A stretch of DNA of 64,000 bases from Bacteroides caecimuris. GTDB taxonomy: Bacteria > Bacteroidota > Bacteroidia > Bacteroidales > Bacteroidaceae. A program made the translations under genes and the position numbers. The notes under the pieces are model-generated. The model searched no databases. It had not been told where the DNA came from and was given only the letters and a program-made list of their open reading frames with translations. The first letter of the stretch is position 1. Each line of letters begins with the position of its first letter. The stretch lies in the NCBI RefSeq assembly GCF_001688725.2, contig NZ_CP015401.2, positions 1,426,001 through 1,490,000 on the forward strand, given 5' to 3'. Positions 40,377 to 52,185 of the stretch are shown in pieces.

Positions 40377-42302
40377 ATGAATATTATAAATTTAGGAATT
40401 CTTGCTCACATTGATGCAGGAAAAACTTCCGTAACCGAGAATCTGCTGTTTGCCAGTGGAGCAACGGAAAAGTGCGGCCGTGTGGATAATGGTGACACCA
40501 TAACGGACTCTATGGATATAGAGAAACGTAGAGGAATTACTGTCCGGGCTTCTACGACATCTATTATCTGGAATGGAGTGAAATGCAATATCATTGACAC
40601 TCCGGGACACATGGATTTTATTGCGGAAGTGGAGCGGACATTCAAAATGCTTGATGGAGCAGTCCTCATCTTATCCGCAAAGGAAGGCATACAAGCGCAG
40701 ACAAAGTTGCTGTTCAGTACTTTACAAAAGCTGCAAATCCCGACAATTATATTTATCAATAAGATTGACCGTGCCGGTGTGAATTTGGAGCGTTTGTATA
40801 TGGATATAAAAACAAATCTGTCGCAAGATGTCCTGTTTATGCAAACTGTTGTCGATGGATCGGTTTATCCGGTTTGCTCCCAAACATATATAAAGGAAGA
40901 ATACAAAGAATTTGTATGCAACCATGACGACGATATATTAGAACGATATTTGGCGGATAGCGAAATTTCACCGGCTGATTATTGGAATACGATAATCGCT
41001 CTTGTGGCAAAAGCCAAAGTCTATCCGGTGCTACATGGATCAGCAATGTTCAATATCGGTATCAATGAGTTGTTGGACGCCATTTCTTCTTTTATACTTC
41101 CTCCGGCATCAGTCTCAAACAGACTTTCAGCTTATCTCTATAAGATAGAGCATGACCCCAAAGGGCATAAAAGAAGTTTTCTTAAAATAATTGACGGAAG
41201 TCTGAGACTTCGAGACGTTGTAAGAATCAACGATTCGGAAAAATTCATCAAGATTAAAAATCTAAAGACTATTTATCAGGGCAGAGAGATAAATGTTGAT
41301 GAAGTGGGTGCCAATGATATCGCGATTGTAGAAGATATAGAAGATTTTCGAATCGGAGATTATTTAGGTGCTAAACCTTGTTTGATTCAAGGATTATCTC
41401 ATCAGCATCCCGCTCTCAAATCCTCCGTCCGGCCAAATAAGCCCGAAGAGAGAAGCAAGGTGATATCCGCTCTGAATACATTGTGGATTGAAGACCCGTC
41501 TTTGTCCTTTTCCATAAACTCATATAGTGATGAATTGGAAATCTCGTTATATGGTTTGACCCAAAAGGAAATCATACAGACATTGCTGGAAGAACGATTT
41601 TCCGTAAAGGTCCATTTTGATGAGATCAAGACTATCTACAAAGAACGACCTATAAAAAAGGTCAATAAGATTATTCAGATCGAAGTACCACCCAACCCTT
41701 ACTGGGCCACAATAGGGCTGACTCTTGAACCCTTACCGTTAGGGGCAGGGTTGCAAATCGAAAGTGACATCTCCTATGGTTATCTGAACCATTCTTTTCA
41801 AAATGCCGTTTTTGAAGGGATTCGTATGTCTTGCCAATCTGGTTTACATGGATGGGAAGTGACAGATCTGAAAGTAACTTTTACTCAAGCCGAGTATTAT
41901 AGCCCGGTAAGTACACCTGCTGATTTCAGACAGCTGACCCCTTATGTCTTCAGGCTGGCTTTGCAACAGTCAGGTGTGGACATTCTCGAACCGATGCTCT
42001 GTTTTGAGTTGCAGATACCCCAAGTAGCGAGTTCCAAAGCTATTACAGATTTGCAAAAACTGATGTCTGAGATTGAAGACATCAGTTGTAATAATGAGTG
42101 GTGTCATATTAAAGGGAAAGTTCCATTAAATACAAGTAAAGACTATGCCTCAGAAGTAAGTTCGTACACTAAGGGCTTAGGCATTTTTATGGTTAAGCCA
42201 TGTGGGTATCAAATAACAAAAGACGGTTATTCTGATAATATCCGCATGAACGAAAAAGATAAACTTTTATTCATGTTCCAAAAATCAATGTCATTAAAAT
42301 AA
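40377..42302 (+). CDS. tetQ: Tetracycline resistance ribosomal protection protein TetQ
   Basis: TetQ is an EF-G-like GTPase that removes tetracycline from the ribosome. From ATG 40377 the protein is 641 residues, the usual TetQ length ([18 protein letters not shown]). The G motifs are AHIDAGKTS (residues 10-18), DTPGHMDF near 74 and NKID near 128. An in-frame upstream start at 40329 lies inside the leader and is not used. It is followed without a gap by rteA (TAATG, one-base overlap). Low GC compared with the tra block. Confidence 0.98.
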
Positions 42303-44621
42303 TGGAGCGGTCAGGAAATTTCTATAAGGCAATACGGTTGGGATATATACTTATCTCCATTCTTATCGGATGTATGGCATATAATAGCCTCTATGAATGG
42401 CAGGAGATAGAAGCATTAGAACTTGGCAATAAAAAAATAGACGAGCTCCGAAAAGAAATAAACAATATCAATATTCAAATGATAAAATTTTCTCTATTGG
42501 GTGAAACAATACTGGAATGGAACGATAAAGATATCGAGCATTACCATGCACGGCGTATGGCAATGGACAGTATGCTCTGCCGTTTCAAGGCCACCTATCC
42601 AGCAGAGCGCATCGATAGTGTGCGCAGTCTTTTAGAGGATAAGGAACGACAGATGTTCCAGATAGTCCGGTTAATGGATGAACAACAATCTATTAACAAG
42701 AAGATAGCCAATCAAATTCCGGTTATTGTACAGAAAAGTGTGCAGGAACAGTCCAAAAAGCCAAAACGAAAAGGTTTCTTAGGCATATTCGGCAAAAAAA
42801 AAGGAAGTAACTCCAGCAGTATCAACCACTATCCTTCATTCGGTCAATAGAAACGTAATCAGCGAACAGAAAGTGCAGGATCGCCAATTGTCGGAACAAG
42901 CCGACAGCCTTGCAGCTCGTAATGCAGAACTTAACAGACAACTGCAAGAATTGATTTGCCAAATAGAAGAAAAGGTACAAACCGAACTGCAAAGCCGGGA
43001 AAACGAAATAGTTGCCATGCGTGAAAAGTCATTTATGCAAGTAGGCGGTTTAATGGGATTCGTTCTTCTATTGTTGTTAATTTCCTACATCATCATACAT
43101 CGTGATGCAAAAAGCATTAAACAATACAAGCACAAGACAACTGATTTGATAAGGCAACTGGAACAATCCGTACAACGGAACGAGGCACTGATAACGTCAA
43201 GGAAGAAGGCGGTACATACTATCACCCATGAACTGCGCACACCGCTGACAGCAATAACAGGCTATGCCGGACTGATACGGAAAGAACAGTGTGAGGATAA
43301 GTCCGGGCAGTATATCCAAAACATACTGCAATCCTCCGACCGTATGCGGGATATGCTTAACACTTTGCTTGACTTCTTCCGCCTGGACAACGGCAAGGAA
43401 CAGCCCCGTCTGTCACCCTGCCGGATTTCAGCAATCACGCACACACTTGAAACGGAGTTCATGCCTGTTGCCGTGAACAAAGGGCTGTCCTTGTCCGTGA
43501 AGACTGGACACGATGCCATTGTATTGACCGACAAAGAGCGAATAATACAAATCGGGAATAACCTGCTGTCAAACGCTGTCAAGTTCACAGAAGAAGGCGG
43601 TGTTTCTTTGATTACTGAATATGATAATGGAGTTCTGACACTGGTCGTTGAAGATACAGGTACAGGCATGACAGAAGAGGAACAGAAACAAGCGTTCGGT
43701 GCGTTTGAACGTCTATCAAATGCCGCCGCAAAGGAGGGTTTCGGGCTTGGGCTTGCCATAATGCGTAATATTGTGTCGATGCTTGGCGGAACAATCCGTT
43801 TAGACAGCAAGAAAGGGAAAGGCAGTCGTTTCACAGTTGAAATTTCTATGCAGGAAGCTGAAGAACAGCTTGGATATACAAGCAATACACCTGTTTATCA
43901 TAACAATAAATTCCATGATGTTGTCGCCATTGACAATGATGAGGTATTACTTCTGATGCTGAAAGAGATGTATTCCCAAGAAGGAATACACTGCGACACT
44001 TGCACCGATGCTGCGGCACTGATGGAAATGATACGCCAGAAAGAATACAGCCTGTTGCTGACAGACTTGAATATGCCCGATATAAACGGTTTCGAATTGC
44101 TGGAACTGTTGCGTTCGTCCAACGTGGGCAATTCACCAACAATCCCGGTGGTTGTGGCAACCGCTTCGGGCAGTTGTAACAAAGGGGAACTATTGGCAAA
44201 AGGCTTTGCCGGATGCCTGTTCAAACCGTTCTCCATATCGGAACTGATGGAGGTTTCCGACAGGTGTGCCATAAAAGCGACACCGGACGGGAAACCGGAC
44301 TTTTCCGCCTTATTGTCCTATGGCAATGAAGCCGTCATGCTGGAAAAGTTGATAACTGAAACAGAAAAGGAAATGCAGGCGGTACGGGATGCAGCAAAAG
44401 AAAAAGACCTGCAAAAGCTGGATTCCCTGATCCACCACCTGCGCAGTTCGTGGGAGGTGCTCCGTGCCGACCAACCGCTGAATGTACTTTACGGATTGCT
44501 TCGTGGCGATGCTCTCCCGGATGGTGAAGCGTTAAGCCATGCCGTGACTGCCGTGCTGGATAAGGGAGTGGAAATAATACGGTTGGCAGAAGAGGAAAGG
44601 AGAAAATACGAAGATGAATAA
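42302..44621 (+). pseudogene. rteA: Hybrid sensor histidine kinase RteA, frameshifted in an A9 tract
   Basis: Two frames, 42302-42850 and 42873-44621, together make one 772-residue RteA if one A is removed from the run at 42794-42802 (GGC-A9-GG). The combined protein has a TM helix at the N-terminus, a coiled coil, a second TM (LMGFVLLLLLISYIII), HisKA with HELRTPL near residue 308, HATPase_c (NNLLSNAV, DTGTGM, GFGLGLAI), a receiver domain with TDLNMPD near 585 and an HPt-like LIHHLRSSWEV. It partners RteB. With nine As, translation ends at 42850 unless slippage occurs or a GTG at 42873 restarts. Confidence 0.9.
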
Positions 44622-45936
44622 GACAAAAATAATTGTGGTGGAAGACAACATCGTGTATTGCGAATATGTCTGCAATATGCTGTCACGGGAGGGCTACCGC
44701 AATATGAAGGCTTACCACCTCTCAACCGCGAAGAAACATCTGCAACAGGCAACAGATAATGATATCGTGGTTGCCGACCTGCGTCTGCCTGACGGCAGTG
44801 GCATAGACCTTTTGTGCTGGATGCGAAAGGAGGGAAAGATGCAGCCCTTCATCATTATGACCGACTACGCCGAAGTTAATACCGCCGTGGAAAGCATGAA
44901 ACTCGGCTCGATAGACTATATTCCCAAACAGCTTGTGGAGGATAAACTTGTCCCCCTGATCCGTTCCATACTGAAAGAACGTCAGGCAGGACAACGCCGT
45001 ATGCCTATATTCGCCCGTGAAGGTTCCGCCTTTCAGAAAATCATGCACCGCATAAGGCTGGTAGCCGCCACCGATATGAGCGTGATGATATTTGGTGAGA
45101 ACGGCACGGGCAAGGAGCATATTGCCCACCTGTTGCATGACAAGAGCAAACGTGCAGGCAAGCCATTTGTGGCGGTGGACTGCGGTTCACTCTCCAAAGA
45201 GCTTGCACCGTCGGCTTTCTTCGGACACGTCAAAGGTGCATTTACAGGTGCGGACAATGCCAAGAAAGGATATTTCCATGAGGCGGAAGGCGGCACGTTG
45301 TTTCTGGACGAGGTAGGAAACCTCGCGTTGGAAACCCAACAGATGTTGCTCCGTGCCATACAGGAGAGGCGGTATCGCCCGGTCGGAGACAAGGCAGACC
45401 GGAATTTCAATGTCCGCATCATCGCTGCTACCAATGAAGATTTGGAGGTATCGGTGAATGAAAAGCGTTTTCGGCAGGATCTTCTGTACCGCCTGCACGA
45501 CTTCGGGATAACCGTTCCTCCGTTGCGTGACTGTCAAGAAGACATTATGCCGCTGGCAGAGTTCTTCCGTGATATGGCAAACAGAGAGCTGGAGTGTAGC
45601 GTGAGCGGGTTCAGTTCCGAAGCACGTAAAGCGTTGCTGACACACGCATGGCCGGGCAACGTGCGGGAACTTCGGCAGAAAGTTATGGGTGCTGTATTGC
45701 AGGCGCAGGAAGGTGTTGTCATGAAAGAGCATCTGGAACTTGCCGTGACGAAACCGACCTCTACTGTCAGCTTCGCCTTGCGCAATGACGCGGAGGATAA
45801 GGAGCGGATATTGCGTGCGTTGAAACAGGCAAACGGCAACCGGAGTGTCGCCGCAGAACTGCTCGGCATAGGCAGGACAACACTATACAGCAAACTTGAA
45901 GAGTATGGACTTAAATATAAATTCAAGCAATCATAG
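44614..45936 (+). CDS. rteB: Sigma-54-type response regulator RteB
   Basis: This 440-residue NtrC-like regulator has a receiver domain with the phospho-acceptor near Asp55 (VVADLRLPDG), an AAA+ domain with Walker A GENGTGKEH near residue 160, GAFTGA near 208, FLDEVGNL, and a C-terminal FIS helix-turn-helix (NRSVAAELLGIGRTTLYSKLEEY). In CTnDOT it activates rteC. The start overlaps the rteA stop by 8 bases. The intact GAFTGA implies sigma-54 contact, though the sigma factor used in Bacteroides here is not shown by sequence. Confidence 0.96.
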   Translation: MNKTKIIVVEDNIVYCEYVCNMLSREGYRNMKAYHLSTAKKHLQQATDNDIVVADLRLPDGSGIDLLCWMRKEGKMQPFIIMTDYAEVNTAVESMKLGSIDYIPKQLVEDKLVPLIRSILKERQAGQRRMPIFAREGSAFQKIMHRIRLVAATDMSVMIFGENGTGKEHIAHLLHDKSKRAGKPFVAVDCGSLSKELAPSAFFGHVKGAFTGADNAKKGYFHEAEGGTLFLDEVGNLALETQQMLLRAIQERRYRPVGDKADRNFNVRIIAATNEDLEVSVNEKRFRQDLLYRLHDFGITVPPLRDCQEDIMPLAEFFRDMANRELECSVSGFSSEARKALLTHAWPGNVRELRQKVMGAVLQAQEGVVMKEHLELAVTKPTSTVSFALRNDAEDKERILRALKQANGNRSVAAELLGIGRTTLYSKLEEYGLKYKFKQS

Positions 45937-45958
45937 CCCGTAATTCACTGAATTTGGC

Positions 45959-45966
45959 TATCTTTG
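45959..45966 (+). promoter_or_regulatory. -7 box for the structured leader and RibD-like gene
   Basis: TATCTTTG matches TAnnTTTG and lies 23 bases after rteB. Transcription would start about 45973, giving a roughly 240-nt leader before the ATG at 46216. Confidence 0.6.
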
Positions 45967-46038
45967 CATAACATTTGAGAAAAACGGCGATTGGCAGGAG
46001 CTTTTCGCCGCCAACATATAGGATAAGACCGCAAGGCG

Positions 46039-46188
46039 TTTCAAGCGAAAATCTGGTAAATTGGAACTACGGAGACGATTGCGTGATGCTTATGCTATGC
46101 TTACGCATAGCGTGCATTCACGTACTCTCCGTAAAGGCTTTACCAGAGCCATCGCTTGAAGGTAGTGTGAATTGCACGCTACTTTTTT
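46039..46188 (+). ncRNA. Long rod-like structured leader RNA ending in a terminator
   Basis: Nested helices are P1 (46040-46048/46152-46160), P2 (46052-46060/46139-46147), P3 (46068-46075/46126-46133), P4 (46082-46089/46114-46122) and P5 (46092-46100/46105-46113, loop TTAC). They are perfect or nearly so and are separated by internal loops. It is followed by terminator GTAGTGTG (46162-46169)/CACGCTAC (46175-46182) and T6, 33 bases before a RibD-like gene. This is a riboswitch or attenuator architecture. Another hairpin lies at 45985-46010. I do not recognise a known class. Confidence 0.65.
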
Positions 46189-46215
46189 ACCCTTGCCTAA
46201 CGAAAGGAAACGATT

Positions 46216-46638
46216 ATGGGTAAAGTTCAGATTCTCGCCGTACTGACGATGGACGGATGTCTTTCTTCAGAGTTATATGATAAAGCACATCAGGATTTGT
46301 GCCTTGACCGTTGCGGTCTTGATGAAATCAGGAAGAAAGCCTTTTACCGTGTGACACCGGACTATTCCATTTCAATGCTGCACGAATGGAGAAAAGACTG
46401 CACAAACATCCGTTACCTCGCGGAAGCCACACCGGACACGGCAGACTATATAAACGGACTGCTGCGGATGCACGCTGTGGATGAAATCATACTATACACC
46501 GTTCCTTTCATATCCGGAAGCGGACGACATTTTTTTAAGTCGGCTCTGCCAGAGCAACACTGGACGCTTTCCTCTTTGAAAAGCTATCCCAACGGTGTAT
46601 GTCGCATTATCTATATCCTTGATAAAAAAGCAAGATAG
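46216..46638 (+). CDS. RibD C-terminal / dihydrofolate reductase-like protein
   Basis: The 140-residue protein matches the RibD C-terminal reductase fold: VQILAVLTMDGCLSSEL at the N-terminus, RYLAEATPDTADYINGLLRMHAVDEIILYTVPFISGSGRHFFKSALPEQHWTLSSLKSYPNGVCRIIY. GGGRH-like ISGSGRHFF is the NADPH contact region. Members reduce pyrimidine or pterin substrates, or are uncharacterised 'dihydrofolate reductase family' proteins. It sits between rteB and rteC, with its own promoter and a structured leader, so its expression seems conditional. Function on the ICE is unknown. Confidence 0.72.
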   Translation: MGKVQILAVLTMDGCLSSELYDKAHQDLCLDRCGLDEIRKKAFYRVTPDYSISMLHEWRKDCTNIRYLAEATPDTADYINGLLRMHAVDEIILYTVPFISGSGRHFFKSALPEQHWTLSSLKSYPNGVCRIIYILDKKAR

Positions 46639-46796: not shown

Positions 46797-46876
46797 ATTT
46801 TCTGCCGCGTTTTTTGCCAATTATATTCATGTGCGCACGCAGAAAACAAAGTGTAATTTTCAAAATTGACAGAACC

Positions 46877-47482
46877 ATGAATTATTTCTTGCTGGCGGAA
46901 ACCGACTTTTTCCGCCTGATAAACGAAGCCGGCGACTGCAATATGGAAACGGCATACACGGCTTTCGCCACCCAAGTGATCGAACTGTGCAACGGCGGCA
47001 TGGACATGAACCTTACCGTCATCGCGCTTGCCTACATCGAAATCGAGTTGCAGCACCATCCCGTACGTAATCTGTCAGAAGAAAAAAGAGAGATTGCCGC
47101 CTACGTCAGCAAGGCTCTGTCTTTCGTAAGAAAGATGCAGAAATTCCTTGCCACGCCCCAAGTGCCACCACTAATATCCGCCAACAACGCAACAGAAACC
47201 ACCGCCAGCCTTCTTCAATGGACGGGCAATGCCATCGACCTCGTGGAACTTATCTACGGCATAGACGTGATGGGCTGCATCAACAACGGCAATATGCCGC
47301 TCAAACAGCTCGCCCCACTTCTCTATAAGATATTCGGGGTTGATTCTAAAGACTGCTACCGCTTCTACACTGATATCAAACGCCGGAAGAACGAAAGCCG
47401 CACCTATTTCATTGACAGGATGCAGGAAAAACTGAACGAGAGAATGTTGCGTGATGAGGAGTTGGAGCGGATGAGAAAATAA
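46877..47482 (+). CDS. rteC: RteC, activator of the excision operon
   Basis: The 201-residue protein starts at ATG 46877 (MNYFLLAETDFFRLINEAGD). It is all-helical. The C-terminal part (QLAPLLYKIFGVDSKDCYRFYTDIKRRKNESRTYFIDRMQEKL) contains a winged-helix-like segment. It matches RteC of CTnDOT, which RteB induces and which binds upstream of xis2c. A longer in-frame start at 46814 adds 21 residues; the shorter is preferred because it follows an A/G-rich leader. Confidence 0.93.
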   Translation: MNYFLLAETDFFRLINEAGDCNMETAYTAFATQVIELCNGGMDMNLTVIALAYIEIELQHHPVRNLSEEKREIAAYVSKALSFVRKMQKFLATPQVPPLISANNATETTASLLQWTGNAIDLVELIYGIDVMGCINNGNMPLKQLAPLLYKIFGVDSKDCYRFYTDIKRRKNESRTYFIDRMQEKLNERMLRDEELERMRK

Positions 47483-47783: not shown

Positions 47784-48914
47784 ATGGAAACAGTAAATAG
47801 AATACTTCAAGAGAAGATTACAGCACGAATCGCGCCCAATAAAGCAGTACTGATTTTTGGTGCTCGCCGTGTTGGTAAAACGGTAATGATGCGTAAAATT
47901 GTGGACAACTATTCAGGTAGGACGATGATGCTCAACGGCGAAGACTACGACACATTAGCACTATTGGAGAATCGCTCAATAGCCAATTATCGGCATTTAT
48001 TGGATGGTATTGATTTGCTGGCTATTGATGAGGCACAGAACATACCACAAATCGGTAGTATTCTGAAGTTGATAGTTGATGAAATACCGGGAATAAGTGT
48101 CTTGGCAAGTGGTTCTTCGTCATTCGATTTGCTGAATAAGACTGGTGAACCGTTGGTCGGCCGCAGTACGCAATTTCTCCTTACACCATTCTCGCAACGG
48201 GAAATCGCACAGACGGAAACGGCACTTGAAACCCGCCAGAACCTCGAAGCGCGCTTGATTTACGGTTCCTATCCCGAAGTAGTAATGATGGAGAACTATG
48301 AACGTAAAACAGACTACCTACGTGATATTGTCGGTGCATACCTGCTTAAAGATATCTTAGCAATTGACGGCTTAAAAAATTCGAGCAAGATGCGCGATCT
48401 ACTGCGATTGATAGCTTTTCAGTTGGGCAGCGAAGTTTCTTACGAAGAGTTAGGTAAACAACTCGGCATGAGCAAGACGACCGTTGAAAAATACCTCGAC
48501 CTATTGGAAAAGGTCTTCGTTATCTATCGTCTGGGGGCTTATTCGCGTAACCTACGCAAGGAGGTTACAAAAGCTGGCAAGTGGTACTTCTACGACAACG
48601 GCATTCGCAATGCCATTATCGGGGCTTTCTCACCGCTGGCCATTCGGCAGGATGTCGGTGCGCTGTGGGAGAACTACATCATCGGAGAGCGGCGCAAAGC
48701 GAACTTCAATGAGGGACTGCACAGGGAGTTCTATTTCTGGCGCACCTACGACAAACAGGAAATCGACCTGATTGAGGAGAGTGCCGACAGTCTTACCGCC
48801 TTGGAGTTCAAGTGGGGAAATAAAATGCCGGCCGCACCGAAAGCCTTCCAAGAAGCCTATCCCTATGCCGAGTTTCATGTGGTAAATCGGGAGAATTATT
48901 TGGAGTTCGTATAA
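47784..48914 (+). CDS. AAA_14 / DUF4143 ATPase
   Basis: This 376-residue protein has Walker A GARRVGKT (residues 26-33) and Walker B DLLAIDEAQNIPQ near 74, followed by SSFDLLNKTGEPLVGRS and the C-terminal DUF4143 domain (YPEVVMMENYERKTDYLRDIVGAYLLKDIL; EVDLIEE-type EIDLIEESADSLTALEFKW). The EIDLI...EFKW ending resembles a PD-(D/E)XK-like core. The family is widespread and uncharacterised, often on mobile DNA. It lies 16 bases upstream of the KAP NTPase, with which it forms a probable two-gene unit of lower GC than the surrounding tra DNA. Confidence 0.85.
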   Translation: METVNRILQEKITARIAPNKAVLIFGARRVGKTVMMRKIVDNYSGRTMMLNGEDYDTLALLENRSIANYRHLLDGIDLLAIDEAQNIPQIGSILKLIVDEIPGISVLASGSSSFDLLNKTGEPLVGRSTQFLLTPFSQREIAQTETALETRQNLEARLIYGSYPEVVMMENYERKTDYLRDIVGAYLLKDILAIDGLKNSSKMRDLLRLIAFQLGSEVSYEELGKQLGMSKTTVEKYLDLLEKVFVIYRLGAYSRNLRKEVTKAGKWYFYDNGIRNAIIGAFSPLAIRQDVGALWENYIIGERRKANFNEGLHREFYFWRTYDKQEIDLIEESADSLTALEFKWGNKMPAAPKAFQEAYPYAEFHVVNRENYLEFV

Positions 48915-48930
48915 TCAATAAATTACGTAT

Positions 48931-51900
48931 ATGGAAACAAAACTACAATCCAAACAGCAATATCCGCGGTTTATCCAAAATAAACCGTGTGGTATTGACA
49001 AATTCGATGGAGGTTCGCAAGAAAGGTTGGCAAAAACTATTGCTCGCCATTTTTGTCAGAATGATTCATTGGATGAGGAATGTACTTTACCTCGAATTAT
49101 CGGCATCGAAGGTATTTGGGGATCTGGAAAATCCAACGTGGTTAAAATGTTGGAACGTGAATTATCAGACGACTATTACTTTTTTGAGTATGACGCATGG
49201 GGACATCAAGAGGACTTGCAACGCCGCTCTATATTGGAATTGCTTACAAGCAAACTTATTGATGATGGTATCCTATCTGGAAATGCAACAATAAAAGTCA
49301 AAGGTGGAGGTACGAAAACCGTATCATGGTCTGAAAAGCTGAAATATTTATTAGCCCGTAAAACGGAGACCGTAACCGAAAAATATCCCCTTATCAGTAA
49401 TGGTATGGTTGCGGCATTTTTGGTTGCAGTTTTAACTCCGATATTTACATTTATTGCGTATGCAGTAAAACCTACACCCACAACATGGTGGTTTTCTTTA
49501 TTGTCTATTATCATAGCTGCACTGCCAGTTCTTATTGCATTGTGCGTTTGGAAATGGGCATATAGCAAAGATCATAAATATGGATGGAGTTATATGTTAG
49601 CTATTTATCAAGATAAAGTCGAAAAGGACGTTTGCTATGAGACTTTGAGCGAAGACGAACCAACGGTTTACGAGTTCAAAACATGGATGCAAGACATTTC
49701 TGATTTTATCAAGGAAAAAGGACAACGTAAATTAGTCCTTGTTTTTGACAACATGGATCGTCTCCCCGCTGAAAAAGTAAAAGAATTATGGTCTTCTATC
49801 CATACGTTCTTCGCCGATAGCGGTTTTGAAAATGTTTGGGCTGTTATTCCTTTCGATGAAACACATTTAGCTTGTGCATTCGGAGATGAGACCGACGAAC
49901 AAACGAAACAACTGACCAAGTATTTTATCAATAAAACTTTCCCTATTGTTTATCGTGTTGCTCCTCCTGTTATTACCGACTATCGAAGTATATTCAACAA
50001 ACTGTTTGTTGAAGCATTTGGAGAAACAGAAAATGAAGCGAAAGAAACTATAAATCGGATATTCAGATTGGTAAATCCTAATGCCAATGTTAGGGAAATT
50101 ATATCATATATCAATGAGATGGTCGCTCTTAAACAAGAGTGGTGTAACGAAATTTTGATGATAAACATAGCATTGTTCTGTTTGAAGAAGACGGATATTC
50201 TGGCAAATCCAGTAGAACAAATATTGTCCGGCGACTATCTGAATGGCATTCAAACAATAATTAACAATGATCTGCAAACACAACGCGAAATTGCAGCTTT
50301 GGTATATGGTGTCGATGTTGAAGATGCTCGACAAATTCCATTGAAAAAATATATTGAAGGCTGCATCAACGGAGAAGAAGACCACGACATAAATCAATAT
50401 GCAGAGACTAATAAACAATTTGACACTGTATTAGAAGAAGTTATACAATGTATGGACAATGCGCTTATCGATAAGATTATACATTGTTTGCATAAATTAA
50501 CTCGAAAGAGCGATGTTATTCTGCGTGTATGGCAAAGAATAGCACAATTGAAATTAAAAGAATCCATAGAGAAGCAGGTGTTCCCTGTCGAATACCAAGA
50601 ACTGCTGTTGCATTTAGACACGGAAAGCCAAAACCATGTGATTGCTCAATTATATAAGAAGATAGTTCGGTTCAATGACTTCAATGGCGGCGACTATTTC
50701 AAAACGTTAGATGCAATAGACAGGTTTATTGCGCAAAATAAGTTGGCGTGCGATTTTACGTCATTGATTGAAGCAAAAACAGTCAAGCCAAATACATTTA
50801 TCGATTATATTCAAGCTGCAAATGCAACAGATGCTGCCTATCGGGATAACGCGACAACTAAAGCATATAAATATTATCAAGTAGCAACAAATTCGGAGGC
50901 GCTCGATAATTATTTGGCAAACTTACTACCCGATAATTTCGACCATGCAGATATTGTAAAAACGTTAAAAGATAATTCTACCTATACGTTTCCAACGCTT
51001 TTGCAAGCGATCACGAATTGCATTGATGAACAGAATGTAAATAAAGATAATATAGGGGCTATATTTACAACCTATCGTTTATTGGCATCTGACGAAGAAA
51101 GACCTTTACCTGTAACGTTAGATTCAACCTACATAAATCAGTTGCATTCTGAATTAGAAACTGATGGCCGAAACATTAAAGAGTCTGGATATTACGATTT
51201 AGTCGCCATGCAATTGGCACATGGTCATTCCGTTTCCTTAATAGAGGGTGGAGATATAAAATATGTTGCAGAACTCATGGACTATTATGTGGATCATGGA
51301 GACTTATTAGTAAATAGTGTGGGATGGAATATACCGCTATTAAATGAAACACTACAATACATGGTAAATCATAAACTTGGCTATAAATTATTGCTCTCAG
51401 ACATATTGCCCCAATTTGAAGATATTAAGAACAGAATAGGTGTAACGGATGAGGTATTTATCGAGCATTTAGCAGAGTGGAATACCGATTTGGATAAGTA
51501 TATCACTAAGAACAATATTAAAGATGTAATTCCTGACGCATCTTTTTACGATTTGACCACTAAAATAAGCAATGTCCTGACCGATCATATCAATAAAATA
51601 GCGTTCGAAGCGTTGTCTGAAATAAGTGTTGATACATTATACGCCCAAAGAACAGCACATACATCATATTATTGGTTTGTCGCAATAAAACATTTACTGG
51701 CTAAAATCAAATCCTTGCCAGATAACTTGACTGAATTTGGCAAAAAGATTCTGATGGATATTGCTTCTGGAACTCAAAGTTTGAATCCTTTCCCTAATTG
51801 TTTCAAGAATATAGTTGAAAGATTGGATAAACGAAAAATTAAATCGACAGTTACCGATATAAGAAATGATTTCTGCATCGGTAAAAAGACTATCAATGCA

Positions 51901-52185
51901 ATAAAGTTTCAATTTTTCGAAACATGGCTTAGATCGCATGGTAATTTGAAAAGTCAAGCTGGAGACGTTATTGATAAAATAGTGAAACCTGTAATTTCCG
52001 ATGGGGCATGCCGTTCATTGATTCTGCAAAACAAAGATTTTTATATGGATTTAATAAATACAGCAGGGGATGATGCTTATGAATTGAAAAAGAGTCTCCG
52101 AAACCTCATACAAAAAGATTCAGATCCGCAATTGGTTAAATTTGTCAATTCGATAGATTCAGTACCTGAGGTTGAAACCGCGTAA
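48931..52185 (+). CDS. KAP family P-loop NTPase, membrane-associated
   Basis: The 1084-residue protein has an N-terminal KAP NTPase domain: Walker A GIWGSGKS (residues 61-68), FFEYDAWGHQEDLQRR, a pair of transmembrane helices inserted at about 155-212, and Walker B KLVLVFDNMDRLP near 268. The insertion of TM helices between Walker A and B is diagnostic for KAP proteins, which include phage T7-excluding PifA. The remaining 650 residues are helical, without recognisable catalytic motifs. Strong AT bias sets it apart from mob/tra. A phage-defence role is inference. Confidence 0.85.
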   Translation: METKLQSKQQYPRFIQNKPCGIDKFDGGSQERLAKTIARHFCQNDSLDEECTLPRIIGIEGIWGSGKSNVVKMLERELSDDYYFFEYDAWGHQEDLQRRSILELLTSKLIDDGILSGNATIKVKGGGTKTVSWSEKLKYLLARKTETVTEKYPLISNGMVAAFLVAVLTPIFTFIAYAVKPTPTTWWFSLLSIIIAALPVLIALCVWKWAYSKDHKYGWSYMLAIYQDKVEKDVCYETLSEDEPTVYEFKTWMQDISDFIKEKGQRKLVLVFDNMDRLPAEKVKELWSSIHTFFADSGFENVWAVIPFDETHLACAFGDETDEQTKQLTKYFINKTFPIVYRVAPPVITDYRSIFNKLFVEAFGETENEAKETINRIFRLVNPNANVREIISYINEMVALKQEWCNEILMINIALFCLKKTDILANPVEQILSGDYLNGIQTIINNDLQTQREIAALVYGVDVEDARQIPLKKYIEGCINGEEDHDINQYAETNKQFDTVLEEVIQCMDNALIDKIIHCLHKLTRKSDVILRVWQRIAQLKLKESIEKQVFPVEYQELLLHLDTESQNHVIAQLYKKIVRFNDFNGGDYFKTLDAIDRFIAQNKLACDFTSLIEAKTVKPNTFIDYIQAANATDAAYRDNATTKAYKYYQVATNSEALDNYLANLLPDNFDHADIVKTLKDNSTYTFPTLLQAITNCIDEQNVNKDNIGAIFTTYRLLASDEERPLPVTLDSTYINQLHSELETDGRNIKESGYYDLVAMQLAHGHSVSLIEGGDIKYVAELMDYYVDHGDLLVNSVGWNIPLLNETLQYMVNHKLGYKLLLSDILPQFEDIKNRIGVTDEVFIEHLAEWNTDLDKYITKNNIKDVIPDASFYDLTTKISNVLTDHINKIAFEALSEISVDTLYAQRTAHTSYYWFVAIKHLLAKIKSLPDNLTEFGKKILMDIASGTQSLNPFPNCFKNIVERLDKRKIKSTVTDIRNDFCIGKKTINAIKFQFFETWLRSHGNLKSQAGDVIDKIVKPVISDGACRSLILQNKDFYMDLINTAGDDAYELKKSLRNLIQKDSDPQLVKFVNSIDSVPEVETA

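Follow-up and report, generated by a model that had tools for sequence, protein, structure and literature searches.

A structured leader RNA with competing, covarying pairings precedes a RibD-like gene on a Bacteroides ICE and belongs to a large, apparently undescribed family in Bacteroidota

Introduction

Between a regulator gene and a small RibD/DHFR-like gene, the ICE in our 64-kb window (the whole stretch of Bacteroides caecimuris DNA that was analysed, 64,000 nucleotides) contains a long imperfect palindrome, which raises the question of whether it works as DNA or as RNA and, in the latter case, on which genes. A sequence-only reading had proposed a riboswitch or another cis-acting attenuator of no recognised class, had pointed out that a mobile-element gene controlled by a metabolite or antibiotic next to the tetracycline regulators would be new, and had kept a stable sRNA as the alternative. 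We examined the fold of this stretch, its conservation and distribution, and the genes that follow its homologues.

Results

A stable rod with a terminator on the ICE

Positions 46020-46192 fold with a minimum free energy of -73.5 kcal/mol, whereas 200 dinucleotide shuffles give -43.3 ± 3.3 and none of them folds as well (0/200; z = -9.07), and the longer stretch 45966-46222 also stands apart from its shuffles (z = -7.07). All five nested helices of the sequence-only reading, P1 to P5, are present where it had placed them, the terminator hairpin and its T6 follow the rod directly (46161-46188), and the -7 box proposed at 45959 was found as TATCTTTG (Table 1). From the position of this box, transcription would start near 45973. 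At the place of the hairpin that separates promoter and rod, homologues show, by eye, hairpins of differing sequence.

Table 1. Features of the leader and its neighbourhood, in window coordinates
Feature	Position	Strand	Evidence or remark
rteB homologue, upstream	44614-45936	+	Response_reg + Sigma54_activat + HTH_8
-7 promoter element (Bacteroidota) TATCTTTG	45959-45966	+	read from sequence
Variable 5' hairpin CGGCGA...UCGCCG	45985-46010	+	single-sequence fold
PK1 5' strand (alpha)	CGCAA 46030-46034, CGUUUC 46037-46042	+	covariation
P1	46040-46048/46152-46160	+	8/9 pairs double-changed in 26 sequences; z = 35.9 in 133 members
AAA of P1-P2 loop, facing CC 46149-46150	46049-46051	+	unpaired; A46049 in 90% of 91
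P2	46052-46060/46139-46147	+	fold + 26-sequence covariation
UU of P2-P3 loop, facing GG 46136-46137	46061-46062	+	unpaired; 98-99% of 91
P3	46069-46075/46126-46132	+	fold; z = 33.8 in 133 members
PK1 3' strand (alpha prime)	GAGACG 46072-46077, UUGCG 46079-46083	+	covariation; competes with P3/P4
P4	46080-46089/46114-46124	+	fold + 26-sequence covariation
P4/P5 5' strand, apical arm (segment 1)	46080-46100	+	fold, covariation
P5	46092-46100/46105-46113	+	fold + 26-sequence covariation
P5/P4 3' strand	46105-46124	+	fold, covariation
Segment 2, UAGCGUGCA	46108-46116	+	common to P5/P4 and PK2
3' strands of P3, P2, P1	46126-46160	+	fold, covariation
Local terminator hairpin (3:4)	46161-46169/46175-46183	+	89.1% of cells paired in A1
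Segment 4, UGCACGCUA	46173-46181	+	mostly terminator 3' arm; complementary to 46108-46116 (PK2)
U-run T6	46183-46188	+	read from sequence
RibD_C/DHFR-like gene, 140 aa, adjoining leader	46216-46638	+	Pfam RibD_C match
RteC-like gene, further downstream, frame as listed	46814-47482	+	Pfam RteC E 1.1e-25, residues 124-213

No well-spaced -33 box was seen by eye upstream of the leader. A simple consensus scan listed neither the promoter nor the terminator hairpin of the leader, its counts being about those expected from shuffled sequence. Two candidates were discarded: a sigma-54 promoter noticed by eye (TTGGC-TATCT-TTGC), whose spacing we take to be wrong for this class, and a small hairpin, CGC/GCG, that the single-sequence fold shows on the 5' side, which looks poorly conserved by eye and in whose stead we tested the pairing PK1 described below.

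The adjoining gene starts at 46216, 27 nt past the T-run. Its product does match Pfam RibD_C, as had been suggested, although weakly and partially (E 3e-5; 24.3 bits for a cut-off of 24.1; residues 76-129); it matches no NCBIfam model at E ≤ 0.01, so that RibD/DHFR-like is a loose label, and has no close solved structure by sequence (one match, E 2.1). The upstream gene is designated rteB, a name that we take to come from CTnDOT. A B. fragilis record shows the same order, with tet(Q), an ATP-binding protein, a sigma-54 dependent regulator, a dihydrofolate reductase family protein and an RteC domain protein; tet(Q) is visible in one of the four annotated stretches examined around leader copies. 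Two other ICE-like records read RteC ... primase/helicase, leader RNA, dihydrofolate reductase family protein and topoisomerase. The rteA homologue of the window (42302-44621) is divided into two frames (42302-42850 and 42873-44621) and is a single CDS in the related B. fragilis record L034. Between its RteC-like and mob genes (47784-52185), the window also contains a 1084-aa KAP-type P-loop protein and an AAA_14/DUF4143 ATPase, at the place of which L034 has an acetyltransferase gene.

The leader accompanies the RibD-like gene on ICEs

Blast comparisons with 45937-46222 gave matches in 35 of 251 family genomes. The 51 loci with a match include many near-identical copies, as well as the window itself twice; all or part of the rod is present in 45 of them, and in 42 of these 45 the RibD-like gene comes next (the exceptions are L026, L027 and L045). 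The aligned part of the leader RNA retains 65-86% identity where the RibD-like protein shows 24-47%; for instance, L033 combines 68% nucleotide identity with 24% amino acid identity in the adjoining protein. Using the protein as query, we found 34 matching places in 201 family genomes, including that of the window, and the leader lies directly upstream in 33 of them (29 of the 30 loci L304-L333, plus L036, L003, L113 and L343); the sole exception is in a single genome, G172 (L325, L344). At the sensitivity used, plasmid and phage collections contained few leader copies.

In L022, L026 and L036, the rod is of the L003 type and the flanks look like those of L002/L018 (for L026, this was judged on the 5' side alone), as if the rod had been exchanged between ICEs as a cassette. 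In genome G080, the 5' part of a leader with rteB (L040, C3:353447-353573) and a 3' part with the RibD-like gene (L021, C3:269660-269838, which still scores as a full-length model match) are separated by ca. 84 kb of the same contig, the element having probably been split within the rod by a rearrangement. Four further loci (L047, L048, L051 and L053) match the promoter region alone (query positions 6-52, 82-85% identity) and have no rod, possibly reflecting just a shared -7 promoter sequence.

The rod and two competing pairings covary

From a set of 27 we aligned 26 distinct homologues (alignment A1), dropping L021, whose 5' part is unrelated, and retaining L028, whose 5' part looks unrelated, and L026, without a 3' end. 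In A1, 91.5% of the rod cells are paired and 19 of the 37 pairs are changed on both sides. The rod has a covariation score of 0.317. Shuffles give 0.163 ± 0.009, and slid versions of the rod 0.035-0.118; 0/500 shuffles attain the observed score and 15/500 its number of pair types, in statistics that, as all those on A1, ignore relatedness among the sequences. P3 is the weakest helix (66.2% of cells paired). G-U exceeds A-C in the rod, by 81:19 in A1 and by 343:87 in the wider alignment A2 (see below), which points to an RNA of the + strand.

Two other pairings compete with the rod, and each of them also covaries in A1. PK1 joins 46030-46034 to 46079-46083 and 46037-46042 to 46072-46077, the last three bases of 46037-46042 being common to PK1 and P1. 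In A1, 87.0% of its cells are paired and 7 of 11 pairs are changed on both sides; no shuffle in 500 reaches its covariation score and four reach its count of double-change cells, although the pairing is imperfect, with column pair 19-63 failing in 12 of the 26 sequences. PK2 joins 46108-46116 to 46173-46181 (94.7% of cells paired), and here column 165, in the terminator loop, covaries with the apical column 103 (CG 18, AU 3, GC 3, UA 1; paired in all 25 ungapped sequences). For the local terminator 3:4, 0/500 shuffles reach the covariation score and 264/500 the number of pair types. Compensatory changes, which the sequence-only reading had proposed to look for, are thus abundant among the homologues.

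Homologues occur across the phylum, and those scanned match no Rfam 15 family

We built one covariance model on A1 (R1) and another (R2) on A2, a model-based alignment of 91 matches that was fitted to the R1 structure and contains some near-identical rows. E-values from both are rough, owing to a short calibration, and their phylum searches used largely the same draw of genomes. At E ≤ 1e-3, R1 matched 87 of the 393 genomes drawn from the order and 28 of the 395 drawn from the phylum; R2, at E ≤ 1e-4, matched 63 of 395 phylum genomes. Counted by genus, the leader RNA appeared in 62 of the 206 genera drawn from the order and in 32 of the 170 drawn from the phylum. In the host genome, R2 also detected 11 copies (E ≤ 0.01), and in the window a single match up to E = 10, which is the leader at 46013-46188. 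Loops and strands recur in distant family members. With a search pattern built on the P2 region, at least 118 named stretches were retrieved, and the 80 with a listed title belong, as we assign the classes, mostly to Flavobacteriia, Chitinophagia, Sphingobacteriia and Bacteroidia. The named stretches among the matches listed include metagenome-assembled genomes (MAGs) labelled Lentisphaerae and one labelled Pelotomaculum, which are perhaps mis-binned.

None of the loci scanned matched a family of Rfam 15 (4227 models) at the leader, in agreement with the earlier failure to recognise a known class. There was no match to E = 5 in window positions 45900-46250, chance-level matches alone in one further locus, L166 (best E 1.3), none at gathering score at the leader in 20 + 18 divergent loci and none to E = 0.1 at the leader in 12 loci. 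We assume that this library includes T-box, 6S, GEMM, ZTP and Flavo-1, and no Flavo-1 match was reported at the leader loci scanned. A fluoride riboswitch match at gathering score lies near a leader copy in L073 (773-841, -). We also considered rteR (RF04181), and rejected it because this separate Rfam family has no match in the window or at the leader. The rteR sRNA itself is found near, and opposite to, the DHFR-family gene in L302 (6762-6835, -), L187 (2131-2204, -) and L168 (6449-6522, -), and ca. 0.8 kb past that gene in L070 (40-122, +).

The listings and passages of the literature compared, among them passages of PMC10994844, PMC7366714, PMC10865816 and PMC1976400, yielded no description of this leader family, and term searches of PMC11109978 and PMC8632094 gave no hits. 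The leader may still be an unnamed entry of a transcript atlas or candidate catalogue.

Pairings, promoter and U-run in 133 family members

We drew 133 non-redundant members from 261 sites, all of them carrying the anchor bases. Because the sequence pattern behind this set fixes P2 bases, we did not use it to judge their conservation. Against shuffled partners, the best stems gave z = 35.9 for P1, 33.8 for P3, 16.1 for PK1 and 19.5 for PK2, compared with 0.3 and 1.4 for two control pairs of windows expected to be unrelated. Upstream of the AAWCTGG anchor, at -125 to -70, 75 of 132 members carry the promoter motif TAnnTTTG, which occurs in 1/126, 3/132 and 5/132 in three control windows. A T5 run lies 22-42 nt past the 3' strand of P2 in 108 of the 133 members, versus 0, 0, 8, 10 and 13 of 133 for five other windows. 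In 113/133 members, no more than 4 nt separate the end of segment 4 from TTTT, and in 12/133 no TTTT follows it.

Members of the ICE-type set retain the local 3:4 terminator, which most of the wider family seem to lack: among the 123 members with a T-run, a local hairpin next to it (simple stem score ≥ 11) was found in 28 (12/34 and 16/89). Median energies are -29.6 kcal/mol for the upper arm, -23.8 for the 2:4 duplex, -13.6 for the PK1 duplex and -0.7 for the local hairpin. These duplex energies ignore pseudoknot costs and have no shuffled control; they place the rod and the alternative folds in the same order of stability. The minimum free energy fold of the early transcript contains PK1 in all four prefixes tried and in 132 of 133 members, yet also in 108-114 of 133 chimeric controls, so that this figure says little beyond the covariation.

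The invariant positions of the leader are unpaired

Four positions are invariant in all 91 sequences of A2, and all four are unpaired: A46050, A46051, C46149 and C46150, which face each other in the P1-P2 loop. In the P2-P3 loop, G46136 and G46137 are kept in 95-98% of the 91 sequences; some paired P2 bases and the U-run are as conserved as the UU/GG bases of this loop. Judging from the alignment, such near-invariant AAA/CC and UU/GG loops would look like a binding pocket.

The leader precedes many types of genes on the same strand

We took as the downstream gene the nearest frame of at least 110 aa, a call that fails in 14 of the at least 118 loci. Among the matches listed, this next gene is on the strand of the leader in 101 of 104 loci, whereas the upstream gene shows no such bias (56/103). 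The 101 downstream proteins among the matches listed, each cut at 330 aa, were profile-searched in Pfam and NCBIfam. A SusC/RagA model was found in 27 of the 101, the Pfam TonB plug likewise in 27, Response_reg (Pfam) in 10, one NCBIfam response-regulator model in 17, RibD_C in eight, redoxin in six and sigma-70 region 2 (Sigma70_r2) in five; the remainder, in the same set of listed matches, are mixed or without a family, with PLD and GmrSD among their types. Copies elsewhere in the host genome are followed by a GIY-YIG-like protein, whose match is weak and does not reach the Pfam cut-off, by a PLD-like and a DUF4468 protein, and by others without a family. The gap from the leader to the next called gene, among the matches listed, is often 200-500 nt and sometimes more, which is longer than in the ICE type. 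In L150, L153, L175, L179, L190, L222, L241, L245, L259 and others, leaders with a similar P1 precede related small response-regulator-like proteins (METGTAQKKITLAFINDKSP...), which suggests one conserved regulatory unit.

The same RNA thus occurs phylum-wide before many gene types, and the idea of a feature peculiar to one mobile element and controlled by a metabolite or by tetracycline is not supported as stated; for the same reason, a single neighbour gene does not point to tetracycline, folate or flavin as the signal, and the mixed gene set argues instead for a global cue or a protein. We found no common metabolic theme in the downstream genes, which is unusual for a metabolite riboswitch. 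Riboswitches for global signals likewise have no single gene theme, and the missing theme lowers the riboswitch claim without excluding it.

Discussion

The best reading of the leader is a riboswitch-like transcription attenuator. We give a probability of roughly two in three (0.68) to the view that 46013-46188 is the cis-acting leader of a Bacteroidota-wide family and controls read-through by co-transcriptional strand exchange. The attenuator-like layout of the sequence-only reading is supported by a structured leader with a promoter-like box and a terminator before the RibD-like gene. As in riboswitches, a conserved structured domain carries near-invariant unpaired residues and lies upstream of its gene on the same strand. 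The promoter-like box, the U-run, the covariation of rod, PK1 and PK2, the orientation of the genes and the conservation of the loops are direct observations, and from them we infer termination, switching and its sign, and the existence of a ligand.

In this model, RNA polymerase would begin near 45973, and the 5' segment alpha would pair first with alpha prime (PK1), after which the apical hairpin 1:2 would fold. The descending strand of the rod may then displace alpha, zip P1-P5 and lock away segment 2, unless a stabilised PK1 blocks it; in that case most of P1 and P2 could still close, and segment 2 would pair with segment 4 (PK2), ending at the U-run. What decides between the folds is probably the recognition of the AAA/CC and UU/GG internal loops by a ligand or a protein. 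Since 2:4 is the sole stem at the U-run in most members, by a simple stem test, termination there probably falls to 2:4 and antitermination to the full rod. The ICE type has an extra 3:4 stem ending at the U-run, so there the sign of the switch could be reversed or ambiguous. Part of PK1 and PK2 could also persist throughout and would then not represent an alternative fold.

A more specific form of this model is tentative, and we hold it to be possible with the odds against it: a phylum-wide, ligand-sensing RNA whose 5' and 3' flanks each invade the upper arm, forming two exchangeable pseudoknots of which the second is the intrinsic terminator. Such an RNA would respond to one global signal and would have been recruited time and again to SusC loci, regulators, other genes and conjugative elements. 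It is somewhat unlikely that the same cis attenuator responds instead to a protein, with its loops binding a host RNA-binding protein or antitermination factor. The diverse downstream genes, many of them with envelope or regulatory functions, resemble a global regulon more than one pathway, and Bacteroides does have a global RRM protein, RbpB, described as binding many RNAs in the part of PMC11697453 seen; however, a small-molecule pocket would account for the conserved loops just as well.

The stable sRNA put forward as an alternative would be a terminated, trans-acting RNA of ca. 215 nt that base-pairs elsewhere, its neighbour gene being incidental. The promoter-like box and U-run of its own would suit such a product, as would an RNA that is better conserved than the adjoining proteins (68% nt versus 24% aa in L033). 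Nevertheless, it is a clearly less likely explanation, because the next gene is on the same strand in 101/104 loci among the matches listed, and there are many different such genes; besides, the leader lies directly upstream at 33/34 RibD-like places and we noticed no conserved single-stranded seed. The terminated form of a cis-acting leader may in addition act in trans.

Improbable to a somewhat greater degree is a fixed double pseudoknot that serves mRNA stability, processing or ribosome access without switching. PK1 and PK2 could partly coexist with P1/P2, and exchange is not strictly required. Still, PK1 uses bases of P1/P3/P4, and PK2 those of P4/P5 and the local terminator, so their full coexistence with rod and terminator is impossible in the window, and the U-run is strongly conserved. 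Attenuation by a ribosome translating a leader peptide from an 82-aa frame across the rod (45975-46223) is very improbable: the frame is open in the window and in 8/26 homologues (2/26 and 2/26 for the other frames), but it is closed in 18/26, so that there is no conserved short reading frame, and the length of the stretch varies from 159 to 172 nt. Equally improbable is a hairpin acting as ssDNA, be it in recombination, as a transfer origin or as a single-strand initiation site, since its ICE location and palindrome are offset by the conserved promoter-like box, U-run and gene orientation, by the ca. 4:1 ratio of G-U over A-C on the + strand, and by the many copies before genes such as SusC receptors, not transfer genes.

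The attenuator that we favour shares with known transcription-terminating riboswitches and attenuators a structured 5' leader, near-invariant loop bases, competing pairings and a stem at the U-run. It differs from them in its mixed gene set, in matching nothing in Rfam 15, and in its two crossing helices, with 5' and 3' flanks both folding into the upper arm. The rteR sRNA resides on the same kind of Bacteroides ICEs, and in L302 just past the DHFR-family gene on the other strand, but its model has 84 positions and a different sequence and structure. The Flavo-1 motif, a widespread structured RNA of Flavobacteriaceae, is described in the part of PMC9723704 seen as indistinctly sense or antisense to transcripts, unlike the oriented leader. 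FopS sRNAs are, like the leader, multi-copy in Bacteroides and linked to SusC; according to the sections of PMC11697453 consulted, which also name a six-member paralogous Bacteroides sRNA family, they are paralogues that act in trans through a single-stranded 5' stretch followed by a terminator hairpin, a description that sets them apart, and their structure was deposited in Rfam. There was no FopS match to the leader among our Rfam 15 results, on the assumption that FopS is part of that release. The HMP2_* catalogue of the human microbiome comprises thousands of candidate structured RNAs, two of those named in the portion of PMC8040213 seen being exclusive to Bacteroidetes; the leader might be an unnamed entry there. 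The leader RNAs form a large and apparently undescribed family, set apart from Flavo-1 and FopS by the descriptions of these.

If our reading is true, a cis-regulatory RNA that occurs in many genera of Bacteroidota, often in several copies, and that matches no Rfam 15 family would be a missing regulatory layer in a dominant gut phylum. Genes for nutrient receptors and response regulators, as well as genes of ICEs, follow its copies. With two pairings that compete and covary, the switching mechanism lends itself to direct tests in vitro, and a search for the ligand has a concrete starting point in the invariant loops. On Bacteroides ICEs, the leader is a candidate control point for the genes beside the rteB regulator.
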